Source: Methanothermobacter sp.
GTDB taxonomy: Archaea; Methanobacteriota; Methanobacteria; Methanobacteriales; DSM-23052
DNA: 64,000 nt
Direction of reading: 5' to 3'
Assembly: GCA_030055615.1 (NCBI GenBank)
Contig: JASFYN010000002.1
Location: forward strand, 375,245-439,244
Shown: positions 5,673 through 23,911 of the stretch, piece after piece
Position numbering within the stretch: position 1 is the first letter of the stretch
Layout: each line of letters opens with the position of its first letter
Translations under genes and position numbers: made by a program
Notes under the pieces: generated by a model
The model's database searches: none
The model's input: the letters and a program-made list of their open reading frames with translations, nothing else
What the model was told of the DNA's origin: nothing

Positions 5673-6848
5673 ATGAGTTACATACCCATCGGGCCAATCC
5701 ACCCTGGAATAAAAGAACCATTAAGGATAAAACTCAAAACAGAAGGAGAAAGGGTAGTAGCCGCCGAAGTCGACTTAGGCTACTTCTATCGCGGCGCAGA
5801 ACAGATAGCCAAGGGCAAACCATGGCAGAAAGTAGTCTACCTCTCAGAGAGAGTTTGTGGCATATGCTCCCACTTCCATCCAGTAACATTCATCGAGGGC
5901 CTAGAAAAAATTGCAGACTGCGAACCCCCACTCAGAGCACAATACTTACGAGTAATAATAGGTGAACTCAACCGTATACAAAGCCACCTCATCGCTAATG
6001 CATTATACTTCCTGGCAATAGAACATGAAACCCTCGCAATATACCTACTAAACATCCGAGAAAAGATAATGGACCTCACAGAGATGATAACAGGAAACAG
6101 AGTGCACTACGCTTGGAACATAGTCGGCGGAGTTAGAATGGACATAAAAGAATCTCAAAAGAAGAAAATATTAGAAAACTTGGATATAGTGGAGCCAGCA
6201 GTATACCGTTACAGGAAAATGTTCAAAACCGGAGCATTTCTAGGTTTAAGATCCAAGGATATAGGGAAAATGAGCAAAAAAGATGCAATAGATGTAAGAG
6301 CTGTAGGGCCCATAGCAAGGGGCTCAGGTGTCAAATTCGACTGGAGGCAAAAGCACCCAACCTTCACAGACTACTTCGATTTCAAACCAGTATGGAGAAA
6401 AGAAGGCGACAACTACGCAAGGATAATGGTAAGATTCGACGAAATACTAGAATCCATAAAAATAATAAGAAGAGCCATCGATGAACTCCCAGAGGGTCCA
6501 ATAAGGAAAGAATGTGAAATACCCGAAGGTTCAATTGATAACAGATACGAAGCCCCAAGAGGGGAAGTCACATACATATTCGAAACAGCGAAAAACGGCA
6601 TCATAAAAGATATAACCATAAGAACCCCCACTATAATGAACCTTGAAGCCTGTGTAAAACACATGTTCAATGACTCACCTACAATAGCAGATGCAGTCGC
6701 CATATACCAAAGTATAGACCCTTGCATTGCCTGCACCGAACGTGTGACAATAATTGATGAACATGGAAACAAAAAAGACTTCAGGGGCATGAACAATCTT
6801 TTAAAAGAACATAGCAGGAGAAAAGAAGGGGTGAGAGGTAAATTATAA
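5673..6848 (+). CDS. ehaO: Energy-converting [NiFe] hydrogenase A, large subunit
   Basis: The catalytic subunit with the NiFe centre, homologous to NuoD, EchE and HycE. The N-terminal nickel motif is RVCGICSH (Cys62, Cys65) and the C-terminal one is DPCIACTER (Cys351, Cys354). Only about 37 residues follow the last cysteine, so whether a tail is cleaved is unclear. The 391-residue start at 5673 gives the family-typical beginning SYIPIGPIHPG. The reading frame is open upstream to 5481 but there it overlaps ehaN and is not used; an in-frame ATG at 5664 is possible. The gene ends in a TAATG junction with ehaP. Confidence 0.93.
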   Translation: MSYIPIGPIHPGIKEPLRIKLKTEGERVVAAEVDLGYFYRGAEQIAKGKPWQKVVYLSERVCGICSHFHPVTFIEGLEKIADCEPPLRAQYLRVIIGELNRIQSHLIANALYFLAIEHETLAIYLLNIREKIMDLTEMITGNRVHYAWNIVGGVRMDIKESQKKKILENLDIVEPAVYRYRKMFKTGAFLGLRSKDIGKMSKKDAIDVRAVGPIARGSGVKFDWRQKHPTFTDYFDFKPVWRKEGDNYARIMVRFDEILESIKIIRRAIDELPEGPIRKECEIPEGSIDNRYEAPRGEVTYIFETAKNGIIKDITIRTPTIMNLEACVKHMFNDSPTIADAVAIYQSIDPCIACTERVTIIDEHGNKKDFRGMNNLLKEHSRRKEGVRGKL

Positions 6849-7861
6849 TGTCCTCTGTAATATGGTACATATACGAATTCGCAAGAAAAAAATGGATCAA
6901 AAGATTCCTAGATGCTAAAACAGATCCAGAAATAGCTGAATCGCCATCAAGGTTCAGAGATTTCCCACAAGTCCAAAAAGAATTATGCATTTCCTGTGGG
7001 GCCTGTATAGCCTCCTGCCCATCTCCAGGGGCGATAAAACTGGTGAGAGACGATGAAATGGAAATGGCATACCCCGTCATAAACAAATCAGCCTGTATAA
7101 GATGCGGTTTCTGCGTGGAAGTGTGCCCAACAGAACCAAAAACTCTCAAAACAGGTGAAAACTATCTTATAAAAGAAGAATACAAGATATTACCAAAGGA
7201 CACCCTTTATGTAATCGATGACTACCTTTGCATACGCTGCGAAAAATGCCTAGAAGCTTGCAAGATAGGGGCCATCTCATCCCATAACAACATAATCACC
7301 ATAGACCAGTCAAAATGTGTATCATGTGGAGATTGCATCAAAACTTGCCCAATAAAAGGAGCCATAAAAGAAGTCTTCATCACAAACATCGACGAACAAA
7401 AAGAGATAATTAACTTATTAGTCGACAATTTAGAAAAGGCCATAAACCTAGAAGTTGAAAGGGTTAGAAAACTGCCAGACTATGACCCTGAAAAGATTAT
7501 AAAATTGGAATTCTCACTATCCAAAATCATGAAAAAAGCCCTCAAAATACTTCCCGATAAGGAAAAAGTAACTAAAATAGTGGAAAATATAACAGACAGG
7601 CTTAAGATCAATGTAATAACCTGGGATGAGGACAAATGCAAAGGTTGTAGATTATGCATAGATGAATGCCCCACAGGCGCCCTAAAATACAACGAAGAGA
7701 AAAACATCACTGAAAGAGACCCTGAAAAGTGCCTCAGATGTAGCATATGCTACCAGACATGTCCATTCGGAGTCCCAGGATTATACACCGCAAGATTCCT
7801 CCTAAAAGATGATAAAATCCTCATAACCTTGAAACCATCCCAGATAGTTGGAAGGGGCTGA
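6848..7861 (+). CDS. ehaP: Eha polyferredoxin with six [4Fe-4S] clusters
   Basis: A 337-residue electron-transfer protein with six CxxCxxCxxxC motifs, two by two. Clusters 1-4 lie in the first half (about residues 45-170), and clusters 5-6 lie near the C-terminus. This matches the 6[4Fe-4S] polyferredoxin described for the eha operon. Between clusters 4 and 5 there is a cysteine-free, charged and probably helical insert of about 90 residues. It most likely wires the hydrogenase module to ferredoxin or to other polyferredoxins. The start ATG at 6848 shares a base with the ehaO stop; the stop lies inside the beginning of ehaQ. Confidence 0.88.
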   Translation: MSSVIWYIYEFARKKWIKRFLDAKTDPEIAESPSRFRDFPQVQKELCISCGACIASCPSPGAIKLVRDDEMEMAYPVINKSACIRCGFCVEVCPTEPKTLKTGENYLIKEEYKILPKDTLYVIDDYLCIRCEKCLEACKIGAISSHNNIITIDQSKCVSCGDCIKTCPIKGAIKEVFITNIDEQKEIINLLVDNLEKAINLEVERVRKLPDYDPEKIIKLEFSLSKIMKKALKILPDKEKVTKIVENITDRLKINVITWDEDKCKGCRLCIDECPTGALKYNEEKNITERDPEKCLRCSICYQTCPFGVPGLYTARFLLKDDKILITLKPSQIVGRG

Positions 7862-9209
7862 TAAAATTCCAGTAACTGTCGAAAAAACATACAAACCAAT
7901 AAGAGAAATAGAAGTCCAATATGAAATAGATGATAAAAAGTGCAAAGAATGCAAGGATAGGCCTTGCCTTAAAGTCTGCCCAGTAGATGCCATCCATGAA
8001 ATACCACCAGATAACCACATCGAAATAGACGAAAAATGTATAGGATGCATACTATGCAGGGAAGCATGCCCATACGATGCCATAAAAATGAAAACCATCC
8101 TATCAGAGCCTATAAGGGAACCAACACCTACAATAAACCCAAAACTTTGCCTAAATTGTGGAGCATGCGTTGCAGCTTGTAAAACTGGTGCCATAGAACT
8201 CGTAGCCTCTGGTAAAGAGGAAATACACCCAGTTATAGATGAAGAAAAATGTGTAAGATGTGGTTACTGCGCCCGAGCATGCCCCTCAGAAGCCATAAAA
8301 TACGGCGAAATCCTACCAAGGGCCGTGGCTACAGGAAAGGCCTTAGTAATAAATCACAATCAATGCATAGGTTGCATGACATGCACAAGAGTCTGCCCAT
8401 CCAAAGGAGCGATAAAGGTCGGGAAAGTAAGCAAATTACCCTACATAGACCCTGCATATTGTGCAAGATGCGAAAAATGCATGGATGTATGCCCATCAAC
8501 CGCCATCAAATACACCACAAGAACCACAGCCTCCAGGAAATTTAATAGAATACATACAACAGAAATGGTATCAGAAGTTCTCGAAAAAGAAACAGAAAAA
8601 GTAGCAGAGGCCACAAGCAAGATAAACTCCATCCTAGAAAATATCGCCAATGAAATAAGCAATAAACATGACGAAAAAAACTTTGAAATAGATATAACAG
8701 ACCAGATAAAAGAAAAGATCAAGGAAATCATAGACAAAGACATTGAAATAGATGAAATAGTAGAGATAATCGAAAAGACCAAACCAAATAGGGAAATAGC
8801 AAGTTTAGAGGAGAAATGTATTGGCTGCGGGGCTTGCGTCGATGAATGCCCAATAAACTGCATAGAACTTGAAATGCCAGCCCCAATTAGCATAGGAGAA
8901 GAATGCGTATATTGTGGAAAATGTGTACAAGCTTGTCCGGTAGAGGCAATAAACCTTAAAGAAGAATTCTTCACCATCAAAGATGATAGAATACTATTTA
9001 AAAGAAGAGAAATCAAGGGACCGAAGAGTGGAAAAGTCATCCCTGATGATATGATTTGCCAAGCATGCGGCATCTGCGTAAACAAATGCCCAGTAAATGC
9101 CTTAAGCCTCAAAAACGATAAAATAATAGTCGACCAAGAAGTTTGTATCAGCTGTGGTGAATGCGAAAACATATGCCCAGTAAACGCCATCAAACTAATC
9201 GAAAACTAA
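7848..9209 (+). CDS. ehaQ: Eha polyferredoxin with ten [4Fe-4S] clusters
   Basis: A 453-residue protein with ten cysteine motifs, fitting the 10[4Fe-4S] polyferredoxin known from eha operons. Clusters 1-6 occupy about residues 25-220 and clusters 7-10 about residues 323-450. They are separated by a Lys/Glu-rich, probably helical linker of about 100 residues that recalls the one in ehaP. The first motif is a variant with two extra residues (CxxCxxxxCxxxC). The start is uncertain: TTG at 7848, overlapping ehaP by 14 bases, is the only standard initiation codon before the first cluster, and its ribosome site is weak. It likely acts as an electron wire or buffer for the hydrogenase. Confidence 0.87.
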   Translation: MEGADKIPVTVEKTYKPIREIEVQYEIDDKKCKECKDRPCLKVCPVDAIHEIPPDNHIEIDEKCIGCILCREACPYDAIKMKTILSEPIREPTPTINPKLCLNCGACVAACKTGAIELVASGKEEIHPVIDEEKCVRCGYCARACPSEAIKYGEILPRAVATGKALVINHNQCIGCMTCTRVCPSKGAIKVGKVSKLPYIDPAYCARCEKCMDVCPSTAIKYTTRTTASRKFNRIHTTEMVSEVLEKETEKVAEATSKINSILENIANEISNKHDEKNFEIDITDQIKEKIKEIIDKDIEIDEIVEIIEKTKPNREIASLEEKCIGCGACVDECPINCIELEMPAPISIGEECVYCGKCVQACPVEAINLKEEFFTIKDDRILFKRREIKGPKSGKVIPDDMICQACGICVNKCPVNALSLKNDKIIVDQEVCISCGECENICPVNAIKLIEN

Positions 9210-12574: not shown

Positions 12575-12850
12575 AAAAACTATGGGGGGAAGAAATCCAT
12601 AACATCCGCGCGCCGAAAAATATTTATAACATAAAAAATGATAATATGATTTGTCACCCCCCAAATAGTCTTAGAAGCCTATAAGAGGGTTCTAAAAGCT
12701 GATACCCACTTCAAAGTCCATGTATGAGAAAAAAACCAGTTTCACATGAAATTTACCATTCAATAGCCAATACTAATGATCCAAAAAACGTGTCACTTCC
12801 CCAGCAACGAGTAATTTTCATAAGTAAAATACTGGTTTTTTACAAGCAAA
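12575..12850. other. Intergenic region with an imperfect inverted repeat before tRNA-Met
   Basis: No protein gene is supported here. A TATA-like stretch (AAATATTTATAAC, about 12617-12630) could start a short transcript. The most striking element is an inverted repeat: AAAAAACCAGT at 12730-12740 is the exact reverse complement of ACTGGTTTTTT at 12831-12841. The similarity continues inward with small gaps (to about 12757 and from about 12811). The right arm ends ten bases before the tRNA. It could be the two ends of a small element or the stem of an RNA. Confidence 0.45.
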
Positions 12851-12959
12851 GCCGGGGTGGCTCAGCTGGTTAGAGCGCACGGCTCATAGGGTAGAATAAC
12901 CGCTCTAACCCCTAACCTGGGATACCGTGAGGTCGCGGGTTCGAACCCCGCCCCCGGCA
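12851..12959 (+). tRNA. tRNA-Met (CAU), elongator type, with intron
   Basis: All four arms can be drawn by hand. The acceptor GCCGGGG pairs with CCCCGGC at 12952-12958, the D-stem GCTC with GAGC, the anticodon stem CACGG with CCGTG, and the T-stem GCGGG with CCCGC around TTCGAAC; A73 is the discriminator and no CCA is encoded. The anticodon CAT is at 12885-12887. After position 37 the gene is interrupted by 35 bases (12889-12923), the canonical archaeal intron site, and resumes with A38. The anticodon stem lacks the three G:C pairs of initiators, so this is elongator Met; a CAU-reading isoleucine tRNA is less likely but not excluded. Confidence 0.93.
12889..12923 (+). other. tRNA-Met intron (35 nt)
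   Basis: Removing these bases restores a seven-base anticodon loop CTCATAA closed by a perfect stem. Insertion between positions 37 and 38 is the usual place for archaeal introns cut by the bulge-helix-bulge endonuclease. GGGT at the 5' side can pair with ACCC within the intron. The precise cut sites could shift by one or two bases. Confidence 0.8.
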
Positions 12960-13074
12960 TAAAACTTAAAAAACACTACTTCTTGATAAATTTTTATAGT
13001 AAATTAACCTAAGGATAACCATCCTATGATTCCAGAAAGATTCCCCCATTATAAGGGGGATTAAGGTGGCATAA

Positions 13075-19655: not shown

Positions 19656-20813
19656 ATGGATATTCTGTTATTCTATGGGGTTGTCTTCATACTCATATGG
19701 ACTTTAGCATTATTATTCAGGAAAAAATTAAAGATTGAAGTCTATGGACCCCTACTCATGCGAAAGACAAAGAGGATGAGGGGCCTTATTGATAGGATAG
19801 CTCAAAAGTATTCCAGATTTTGGAAGTGGAGTGTGAACATAGGTATCCCCATAGCTTTCTTTTTCATGTTTTACATGTTATATGCAATCATAGCATCCCT
19901 CAAGGACATTTTCGTGCAACCACAAGCATCTTTAATCGTCCCAGGAGTGGATATTCCAGGGAGTCCGCTCTTTGTTCCATTGTCCTATGGGCTGATAGGA
20001 CTAGTAATTGTGATAGTAGCCCATGAATTCGCACATGGAATACTAGCAAGGATTGAAGGCGTGAAAATAAAATCCATTGGCTTACTTTTGCTCGCTATAA
20101 TACCTGGTGCTTTCGTAGAACCGGATGAGGATGATATTAAAAGGTTAAATAGGCTCCCAAGATTGAGAATATACGCAGCAGGATCCATCGCTAACCTGAT
20201 AATAGCATTTTTATGCCTTCTAGTATTTATTGGAGTTTCATCCTATGCCGTGCCCGCAACCTTCGAAACAGATGGCATAGTGATAAAAAGCGTGGTACCT
20301 GGCAGCCCCGCCAGTACCATACTAAAGGATGGTATGGTCATAAAAAGCATTAATGGCAAGTCAACAACTAATATAACCGAATACCGGAAGGCTATAGAAG
20401 ATATAAAGATAGGTGAAGTGATCACAATAGAAACAGATCAAGGTATATTCAAGTTAAAGACTTCAAAAAATCCAAACAATGCAAGCAGAGCATATATTGG
20501 CATAAGGAGCACCAACAATCTAGAAGTCAAGGAGTCCGTGAAATCAATATGGGGAGATAACCTACCCACCTTACTACTTTACCTCCAAGACTTGTTCTTT
20601 TGGATTTCAATCCTCAATTTCGCAGTTGGAACCGTTAACCTCCTACCTGCAAAGCCACTTGACGGAGGTTTAATGTTTGAGGAACTTTTAAAATCCAAAC
20701 TCCCTAAAAATCTGGTAAACCCTATTGTAAGTTCTGTTTCAGTATTTGTAATCTTAGTATTAGCACTTAGCATAATATGGGGCACTGGCCGGGGTATCCT
20801 CTTAATGTTCTAA
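19656..20813 (+). CDS. Site-2-type membrane metalloprotease (M50) with PDZ domain
   Basis: An intramembrane zinc protease of the RseP/SREBP S2P family, 385 residues. The zinc motif HEFAH lies at residues 123-127 within a helix. The third ligand is in PLDGG (Asp336), and a PDZ domain spans about 190-265 (GIVIKSVVPGSPA). Four or more helices surround these. Such enzymes cut membrane-bound regulators or signal peptides. It starts nine bases after moeA, with AGGTG as ribosome site, so it may be cotranscribed without being functionally related. The substrate is unknown. Confidence 0.9.
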   Translation: MDILLFYGVVFILIWTLALLFRKKLKIEVYGPLLMRKTKRMRGLIDRIAQKYSRFWKWSVNIGIPIAFFFMFYMLYAIIASLKDIFVQPQASLIVPGVDIPGSPLFVPLSYGLIGLVIVIVAHEFAHGILARIEGVKIKSIGLLLLAIIPGAFVEPDEDDIKRLNRLPRLRIYAAGSIANLIIAFLCLLVFIGVSSYAVPATFETDGIVIKSVVPGSPASTILKDGMVIKSINGKSTTNITEYRKAIEDIKIGEVITIETDQGIFKLKTSKNPNNASRAYIGIRSTNNLEVKESVKSIWGDNLPTLLLYLQDLFFWISILNFAVGTVNLLPAKPLDGGLMFEELLKSKLPKNLVNPIVSSVSVFVILVLALSIIWGTGRGILLMF

Positions 20814-20980
20814 AGAAATCACCTATTTTTGTCTCTTAGTTTCTTTTTAACCCATCTCATGTTAATGGTCGGTTTTTCGAATTTAATCTTCCTTTTCAAG
20901 GTTGTATTGTGAGTGAACAGTATATATTTCAAGGTAATCCATTTAAAAATTAAAAAGAAAATTTGGAAGATCATTCACTT
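20814..20980. other. Gene-free AT-rich space after the M50 protease
   Basis: I see no gene, RNA or clear repeat. It contains T-rich stretches that could end transcription from both sides and leads into the degraded reading frames at 20981-21705. Confidence 0.4.
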
Positions 20981-21705
20981 TCAAGGTTTTATGATTCGCT
21001 TAGCAAGTTCTTCATATTCAGACGCATAATAAATAATAAAATTCCTCCATCCTTTTCGAAGACATGAACATAATAAGGTATCTTAGTATCGTTTAGTTTT
21101 TTTCTTGGTATACACTTTACCTTCCCAGTTGTCTCATTACCGAGTGGTTCATACAGTTCAGGATCATTGAATCCTAAATCTTAAATGGTCACACTGCTAT
21201 TCTCAGAAATAAAGATGATAATAAAATTACCAACTGAAACAGTACCACCGGAACTAGAGAGTGTGTACTGTGAATACTCCTGCTTTTCCACTTTCTTCAA
21301 TATCAAACCCTTTTAGCAACCGAATATATCGCATTCATTATTATCTCTTCATATATTAACTTACTTTTGTTAAAATTTTCCGGCAATACATCTGGCCTCA
21401 AACCATCGTCAGTCAAGTTTAATGAGTGAGAATATTCATAAGAAAGTTCTGAGACCAAATATCCCAATGGAATGAAAAAACCACTGTCCCCCCTCTTATA
21501 ATAAACATTTATATTTTTTTGTTATATTTTTTGGTGAACTAGGGCCTTAGATAGTATTATACCTCAACGCACTAAGGCCATGTATTTTTTTCTCCACATC
21601 AAAAGCACCTTCCCAGACAAAAATTGAGCGCTGCCTTTATTGAAACTAAAATAAATATTTTAAGTTTCCATAGTTTTTCCAAAATGATATCATCAAAGGG
21701 ATTTT
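20981..21705 (-). pseudogene. Remnant of an unidentified protein gene, several frameshifts and stops
   Basis: Read on the minus strand, protein-like sequence runs almost unbroken but changes frame repeatedly. Segments recovered include DSGFFIPLGYLVSEL and LIYEEIIMNAIYSVAKR (21310-21500). A shift then leads to GFDIEESGKAGVFTVHTL, and another to SSSGGTVSVGNFIIIF, ending SVTI with an in-frame TAA at 21181-21183. The frame continues as DLGFNDPELYEPLG, and a last shift gives NFIIYYASEYEELAKR with a TGA at 20981-20983. Above 21500 the frame also breaks (VEKKIHGLSALRYN, NIYFSFNKGSAQF). The 5' limit is uncertain. The family is not recognised. Sequencing error is possible, but so many lesions point to true decay. 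Confidence 0.7.
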
Positions 21706-21706
21706 A

Positions 21707-22229
21707 GGATTTTTTTGGTTTTATTGTTTTTATAATCTGCTCGACAGCATCATACCGATCAAATTTCGTACTATACGAACCACAATCATAGCACAAAGAC
21801 CATCCTTTCCTTTTGGAAAATAAGAAATTCAGGGCATTGCAATAATAACATTAGGTGGTAGTTCTTCATTTTTTCAACTTTATATATGGTGCAGTTTGCC
21901 CCTCCAATCGTCTCAGTGACGCGTGTATAGTTCATTCCAGTCATTTTCCATTTTTCAATCTCTTGCACCACATATTTTTCAACATCCTCAAATGTAGCAT
22001 CCAGATAAGCGCTGACTATTATATCTTGATTCTCATCTTCGCAAGAAAGCATTACATATTCATAATTTCCTAATTCAGAAAATTCTTTACCATTATCCGA
22101 ACTATTATAACCTTCTGGGTATTCAAATGACATGTATTCGCCATCATACACATTTGCCCCCAGGTTTGTGCAACCGGCAAACATTAACACCAAAATTACC
22201 AAAACTATAACAGGAAATGTCTTTTTCAT
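21707..22229 (-). pseudogene. Frameshifted lipoprotein gene (PsbP-like lipoprotein)
   Basis: The N-terminal 20 residues are a classic lipoprotein signal with lipobox FAGC (Cys20 or so), followed by a small secreted domain resembling the PsbP-like lipoproteins common in Methanobacteriales. The open frame stops at 21786 after 147 residues, and its last 25 residues look unlike a protein end. One base out of frame, near 21835-21845, the sequence continues as NALNFLFSKRKGW, CYDCGSYSTKFDRYD and AVEQIIKTIKPKK to a TAA near 21707. That is the kind of C-terminus such domains have. I therefore read it as one gene of about 173 codons with a frameshift. Confidence 0.65.
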
Positions 22230-22490: not shown

Positions 22491-23267
22491 ATGTGTAGAT
22501 TGTTAGGTTTGGTAGCTAATAAGCTAGTGGATTTTAAATTTTCTTTAGAGTTATTCAAGGAGAAATTTTCAGATGAAAATCCTGATGGATGGGGTGTTGC
22601 ATGGTATGAAAATAATTCTCCTCGTTTAGAAAAGCAAGGTATATCTGCAACTGATGAAAGATCCCGCTTTCAAAGTTTTTCTGAGTATGTTGAATCGAGG
22701 ATAATCATGGCCCATGTGAGAAAGAGTACTGGTGCTCCAGCAGCCGAAGTAAATTCACATCCATTCAAATGTAATGATTGGATATTCGCCCATAATGGTT
22801 CAGTGAACAGAGAAAATCTTTTACCACTTCTAAAAGAGGACTATAGCAGAAATATAAAGGGGGAGACCGATTCAGAAGTCTATTTTCATTGGATCCTACA
22901 GAATATTCAAGAACATGATATTATAAGTGGAGTAAAAGAGGCTCTGGAAAAAGTCATGGAAAGTAACTTTACTGGCCTTAATTTTTTATTATCAGATGGT
23001 AAATCATTTTACGCATTCAGATATTCAGAAATAAACACTGATTATTATTCGCTTTTCAAATTAAAAAGGAAACCGTCTGAAATAAGTCCTTTAACTTTGA
23101 AATCCCAGGAAACTAGAATGTTAATCGAAACCAAATCATTAAATAAGGAGAAGGCCGTTATAGTCTGCTCTGAAAAGTTGACTGAAGAAAATTGGGAGAA
23201 AATAAAAATGGGACACATGTTAATCATCAAACCAAATTTAAAAATGAAAGAGGTCAAAATACTCTGA
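22491..23267 (+). CDS. Class II glutamine amidotransferase domain protein (YafJ-like)
   Basis: A 258-residue Ntn-type glutaminase standing alone. Cys2, exposed after removal of Met1, is the nucleophile. Other glutaminase landmarks are NPDGWGVAWY (about 30-39), RKST (arginine contacting the glutamine carboxylate), SHPF, and FAHNG (about 97-101). No synthase domain is fused, as in YafJ-type proteins of unknown target. The ATG at 22491 follows GGTGA at 22480-22484. About 25 bases upstream there is a short inverted repeat, TTGGA-N6-TCCAA (22453-22468). Neighbours give no clue to the acceptor substrate. Confidence 0.85.
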   Translation: MCRLLGLVANKLVDFKFSLELFKEKFSDENPDGWGVAWYENNSPRLEKQGISATDERSRFQSFSEYVESRIIMAHVRKSTGAPAAEVNSHPFKCNDWIFAHNGSVNRENLLPLLKEDYSRNIKGETDSEVYFHWILQNIQEHDIISGVKEALEKVMESNFTGLNFLLSDGKSFYAFRYSEINTDYYSLFKLKRKPSEISPLTLKSQETRMLIETKSLNKEKAVIVCSEKLTEENWEKIKMGHMLIIKPNLKMKEVKIL

Positions 23268-23284: not shown

Positions 23285-23911
23285 TTAATAGATTACCATG
23301 ACGCACATGTAACTAAATTTTGAATTTTTAACATCTTCTAATTTCATTTTTATGATTCGTTCATCTGGGTAGCTTAGCCTTTCACATATTGCCACCTTTC
23401 TTTCGGGATCTACGCCACTTTCTATTAGGAATGATGCTGTTTCACTAGGATTTTTAGAGGGTAGTAGGATAGTGGGTTTCCCATTGTCAATTAACTTGGA
23501 TATTTCAGCTTCTTTTCGCCCGTGTAATGTTAAGATGTTTGCATGGTTCCAGGGTAGCAAGAGTCGGGCTGCGCACAATTGAATTGAACTAATACCAGGG
23601 ATAACCTGGACATCTACTTCTATATTAAGTTTTTTGATGATTTCATTAACTGGATTCAAAACACCTGAGAAGCCGGGATCCCCTGTTGAAATGATTGAAA
23701 CTGTCTCCCCTCTATAAGCTCTTTTAACAGCCTCTTCTAACTTTTCTCTTACATTTTCGCCATTAAGTGTTATCTTCTCCTTCTTTTCATCGAATAATTT
23801 TAGGACTCTTTCACTTCCAACAACTAAGTCGGATTTTTTAACCGCTTTTCGCGCCGCTGGCGTGACAAAATCTGGAGATCCTGGCCCGGCTCCCACAAGA
23901 TATAATACCAC
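23285..23911 (-). CDS. cbiE: Cobalt-precorrin-7 C5-methyltransferase CbiE
   Basis: A SAM-dependent methyltransferase of the anaerobic cobamide pathway, 208 residues. The N-terminal LVGAGPGSPDFVT motif (about 4-16) and STGDPGFSG (about 79-87) are the substrate- and SAM-binding loops of the tetrapyrrole methyltransferase fold. The length and the N-terminal DxVxxxA-like arrangement fit CbiE (the CobL N-terminal half); the decarboxylase partner CbiT is not next to it. It stands alone here, convergent with the amidotransferase. Another member of the family such as CbiF or CbiH is possible but less likely. Confidence 0.8.
   Translation of the reverse strand: MVLYLVGAGPGSPDFVTPAARKAVKKSDLVVGSERVLKLFDEKKEKITLNGENVREKLEEAVKRAYRGETVSIISTGDPGFSGVLNPVNEIIKKLNIEVDVQVIPGISSIQLCAARLLLPWNHANILTLHGRKEAEISKLIDNGKPTILLPSKNPSETASFLIESGVDPERKVAICERLSYPDERIIKMKLEDVKNSKFSYMCVMVIY

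Follow-up and report, generated by a model that had tools for sequence, protein, structure and literature searches.

We analyzed a stretch of 64,000 nucleotides (hereafter, the window) from a Methanothermobacter genome, G000, of 1.49 Mb in six contigs, in which the window corresponds to G000:C2:375245-439244. It holds 62 non-overlapping ORFs of at least 60 amino acids, none of which covers positions 20814-21785. These 972 bases form the longest ORF-free stretch of the window, and the original prediction that erosion stands out here in otherwise gene-dense DNA was thus borne out. The runner-up, at 12575-13074 (500 bases), contains a tRNA gene. This tRNA-Met(CAT) gene (12851-12959, plus strand) carries a 35-base intron 3' of the anticodon; the default tRNA scan missed it, and it was detected by Rfam and by ARAGORN with introns allowed.

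The ORF-free stretch and its neighbors on one side lie between a gene for what we take to be a site-2-protease-like membrane protease (S2P; 19656..20813, plus strand) and a tetrapyrrole methylase gene (TP_methylase; 23285..23911, minus strand; PF00590, E 3.9e-41), presumably CbiE-like, which form the left and right edges, respectively, of a pocket of variable gene content. Within this pocket, we distinguished the open part of a gene for a truncated PsbP-like lipoprotein of 147 amino acids with an N-terminal lipobox (gene A; 21786..22229, minus strand), its severed C-terminal tail in another frame, with a family-like end and a stop (21704..21785, minus strand), and remnant B, probably another gene for a secreted protein, which has at least six breaks and a C-terminus like that of A's family (20976..21682, minus strand). 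Divergent from A lies an intact gene for a class II glutamine amidotransferase, GATase_4 (22491..23267, plus strand; PF13230, E 3.6e-38), which is a clear member of its family, scoring 131.5 bits where the cut-off is 23. The GC contents of A's ORF, B and GATase_4 are 35.4%, 33.1% and 33.8%, respectively, compared with a mean of 40.0% (s.d. 2.9) for the 62 ORFs of the window, among which GATase_4 ranks lowest and A third-lowest.

Gene A and its relatives

The original prediction had placed here, at coordinates that we could confirm, a lipoprotein gene with one frameshift. Indeed, the minus-strand ORF (22229-21786) runs undisturbed until a stop near 21785, where one net shift occurs, and the C-terminus of the family resumes in another frame, to end with a stop at 21704. 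About 26 residues are severed in this way. The N-terminus, read directly from the translation (MKKTFPVIVLVILVLMFAGC), is predicted to be a signal peptide with a lipobox cysteine, the lipobox ending in LMFAGC. The whole span of 525 nt requires a single break, whereas 500 shuffles averaged 7.06 breaks and never had fewer than 2. At shift costs of 10 and 12, a frameshift-tolerant alignment took a single shift, near 21785, for A to cover positions 1-168 of the 171 in the family profile; with the cost lowered to 8, it used three shifts. The tail scored 34.7 half-bits against a profile of three close relatives, a value that no shuffle and no other 86-mer of the window equalled (1000 of each); against the nine-member profile, the match was weaker, being equalled by 16 of 1000 shuffles and 14 of 1000 window 86-mers. 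Since the tail beyond the stop matches the end of the family, A is probably one break short of a full-length member.

We then searched 150 genomes of the order with A, and at E ≤0.001 obtained matches in seven, including its own; none of the 150 yielded a close orthologue. A profile of nine relatives, from which A was excluded, recovered A at 45.4 bits (E 1.6e-13; runner-up 0.17) among the 333 ORFs of the window, and this match places A in a PsbP_2-related lipoprotein group of the Methanobacteriales. The profile omits the broken L006 and L004, whose start is uncertain, and leaves L030 and L031 unused as well. Intact members of the family are about 146-180 amino acids long, and two of them are encoded in the same genome as A (G000:C4:90827 and G000:C1:200748).

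PsbP_2 itself (PF18933; gathering cut-off, 27 bits) did not match A at E up to 1. Three relatives (L004, L010 and L011) passed its cut-off and two (L005 and L009) matched below it, while L002, L007, L029 and the 156-aa ORF of L047 gave no match at E up to 0.1. Since A lacks a PsbP_2 match, we call it, judging from its sequence, a distant relative of the PsbP-like archaeal lipoproteins and keep it out of PF18933. With such proteins (for example, G000:C1:200748 and L011) it shares a signal peptide with a lipobox, an F-x-Y-P motif, a closing hydrophobic stretch and the C-terminal motif I-I-x-S-x-x, whereas it differs from them in its frameshift and in its low identity to its own relatives, which amounts to 22-35% in the longer matches. 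A single-sequence structure model of A (mean pLDDT 50.4) was too poor for a comparison with the PsbP / Mog1 fold. In two genomes of another family, the gene for an intact relative of A is arranged head to head with one for another small membrane protein that is built in a similar way (7547-8017 and 8101-8541 in L047; 8025-8465 and 8548-9018 in L045).

Several further candidates were set aside. A match at G000:C1:471907 was discarded as antisense inside an intact large ORF, and the matches of A in Pfam and NCBIfam (E 0.013-0.24), all below cut-off, were treated as chance. A collection of genomic contigs gave 52 stretches with the pattern and no true relative, a protein search for homologues on plasmids gave no match, and our literature search found nothing on PsbP-like proteins of methanogens.

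Remnant B and competing explanations

Downstream of A, readable minus-strand pieces in shifting frames extend from about 21682 to 20976. When read by eye, B would start with a TTG at 21682, followed by a signal-like stretch. The original prediction of a remnant with at least four shifts or stops was a fair lower bound, since the tested span (21704-20976, 729 nt) requires at least six breaks on the minus strand and eight on the plus strand. The description of the decay as fairly recent fits A with its one break, but not B.

Whether B was a gene at all had to be weighed against the alternative of intergenic DNA, or DNA for a regulatory RNA, in which readable stretches arise by chance. Such DNA would be consistent with the homology searches: neither the search of 150 genomes nor that of 151 yielded an accepted homologue, and at E 0.001 the only match of the 151 was B's own genome. 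Two weak matches in the order (E 0.004 and 0.007) lay among unrelated ORFs and disappeared at E 0.001 with a longer query, and a piece of B gave five stretches and no relatives in viral contigs. The codon-usage score, which is better on the minus strand, is also compatible with non-coding DNA, as it was equalled by 22 of 1000 shuffles at a switch cost of 4 and by 61 at a cost of 6, and gave no signal at the top cost of 8. On the other hand, only 20 of 1000 shuffles (mean 9.8) had as few breaks as B, and Rfam gave no match over the span. Furthermore, the last 30 or so codons of B match the C-terminus of A's relatives at a level equalled by none of 400 window pieces and one of 400 Markov sequences, in a later one of several tests on B, for which the profile was narrower and shifts were charged less; against the broad profile, B's score was reached by 2 of 120 pieces of the window and by no shuffle out of 120. 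We thus consider it unlikely that B is no gene remnant. Its coding evidence is modest, its sequence has a weak C-terminal family match in place of an identifiable intact homologue, and we regard B as a probable, though not proven, decayed secreted-protein gene adjoining A.

For A, the frame is disrupted relative to intact family members, with one shift as compared with none in L005, the relative in G001, and three other explanations were considered. The shift, seen in the assembly only, could be a sequencing or assembly error, in which case the gene would be intact, with about 173 codons. A single shift with the family C-terminus and a stop retained where expected would fit such an error, as would an assembly that consists of six contigs; however, no long homopolymer lies at the shift, and the breaks in B directly downstream are too many for error in a window whose 62 ORFs are otherwise regular, which makes an artefact quite doubtful. 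Programmed frameshifting, by which full-length A would arise through a +1 or −1 shift, would account for the family matches in both frames on either side of the junction. L005, however, reads without any shift, inspection by eye revealed no slippery heptamer, and the shift site is not conserved in relatives: L006, the one other broken relative and the nearest one in G002, has two shifts at sites other than that of A, which argues against a conserved programmed frameshift. This mechanism is therefore highly improbable. The 147-aa form might also be a functional shortened lipoprotein under selection, from which only the last 26 or so residues were removed: its first 121 residues, including the signal peptide and the lipobox, are intact, and it retains most of the domain and might work. 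Against this, the conserved C-terminal motif of the aligned relatives falls in the lost part, the nearest relative in G002 is likewise broken, and the adjoining B is wrecked, so that we hold a selected short form to be improbable as well.

Decay of secreted-protein genes, as originally proposed, is accordingly supported, with one frameshift in A and at least six breaks in B, the latter a probable remnant. The further suggestion that a surface function was lost is not supported, since the genome has two intact paralogues and the shortened A could still be made.

L006 is surrounded by variable-looking genes. Near it, three ORFs of L023 in G002 (2419-2820, 5943-6410 and 7702-8217) have a near-identical N-terminal signal and linker, and differ in their C-terminal parts.

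The variable pocket in sister genomes

Comparison within the genus alters the reading of the locus, because the whole pocket between S2P and TP_methylase is variable and another gene, GATase_4, is decaying there. This comparison rests on the genomes G002 and G003, as the contig of G001, from the same genus, stops inside S2P. Both G002 and G003 keep the gene order around the pocket. On the side of S2P, this comprises what we take to be ABC genes and a MoeA-like gene, and on the side of TP_methylase, genes presumably for an Obg-like GTPase and a P-type ATPase. The pocket itself holds, in both sisters, genes for a DUF169 protein, a ferredoxin-like protein and Hsp20. The pocket thus differs in content among sister species, while its borders are conserved, and it is AT-rich. 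The idea that these genes had moved elsewhere in G000 was rejected, as neither the DUF169 (best match, 29%) nor the ferredoxin gene (32-40%) has an orthologue there; for Hsp20, the window alone was searched, with no match at E 0.01.

Whereas the window has an intact GATase_4, both sisters retain eroded remnants of the gene at the corresponding place. The G003 remnant (5206-5769 of L019, minus strand) contains eight stops and lacks the first 47 codons, and only two end parts are left in G002 (about 10200-10460 of L020). This pattern suggests that the gene was probably present in the pocket before these lineages split, and that it was lost at least once.

We also found a replacement tract in G003. 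Outside it, G002 and G003 are about 69-89% identical (ABC, MoeA-like, Obg-like and the first part of S2P), whereas their identity is 91.6-100% in the part that extends from mid-S2P over the DUF169 block, as well as in the distal half of TP_methylase; the eroded GATase_4 stretch inside the tract is lower, at 49-81%. The identity between G000 and G003, about 90% elsewhere, drops over the same tract to 80-85% in most blocks, with one block at 90%; this is the level between G000 and G002. Since the one identity rises and the other falls, G003 is the recipient: a G002-like donor contributed the segment with DUF169, ferredoxin and Hsp20 (about 4820-8100 of L019 on G003:C4, from mid-S2P to mid-TP_methylase), which entered by homologous replacement. 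The GATase_4 remnant of G003 is longer than that of G002, and therefore the sampled G002, in its present form, is not itself the donor.

It is conceivable, and we propose it only tentatively, that the pocket is an exchange site in this genus, where alternative cassettes (lipoproteins with GATase_4, or DUF169-ferredoxin-Hsp20) are swapped across species by homologous recombination in the conserved border genes and the leftovers decay; the tract in G003 would be one such swap, and shows its direction.

Probable unequal decay of accessory genes

We favor the explanation, at a probability of roughly 0.78, that A and B, two neighboring accessory genes encoding secreted PsbP-like proteins, lie with GATase_4 in the variable pocket and undergo ordinary, unequal decay. 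It draws on the breaks in both genes, the variable pocket, the replacement tract in G003 and the eroded GATase_4 of two sisters. The most likely mechanism would be relaxed selection on dispensable genes, in which random indels and substitutions stay unpurged. A would thereby have received one frameshift near its 3' end and B many breaks, with GATase_4 still intact here, while in the sister lineages the pocket content has been lost or replaced, once visibly by homologous recombination via the conserved borders. Under this explanation, A and B would be dispensable and no longer functional, and they may formerly have been one transcription unit.

Disabled genes of this kind have precedents. The survey of prokaryotic pseudogenes by Liu et al. 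(2004; PMC522871) found putative horizontal transfer to be enriched among them; in its Table 1, M. thermautotrophicus has five pseudogenes, five of them in the horizontally transferred column. The disabled frames of A and B in their AT-rich accessory pocket resemble these pseudogenes from accessory or transferred genes; the pseudogenes of the survey are linked to horizontal transfer, whereas we liken A and B to them by decay, not by origin.

For annotation, A should be labeled a lipoprotein gene with a frameshift, and the segment 20976-21682 should be entered as a probable pseudogene rather than left as empty DNA. The most useful by-product of the analysis is the replacement tract of G003. With this cross-species replacement, whose borders can be read, the wider locus provides a small, clean case of accessory-gene turnover in methanogens.
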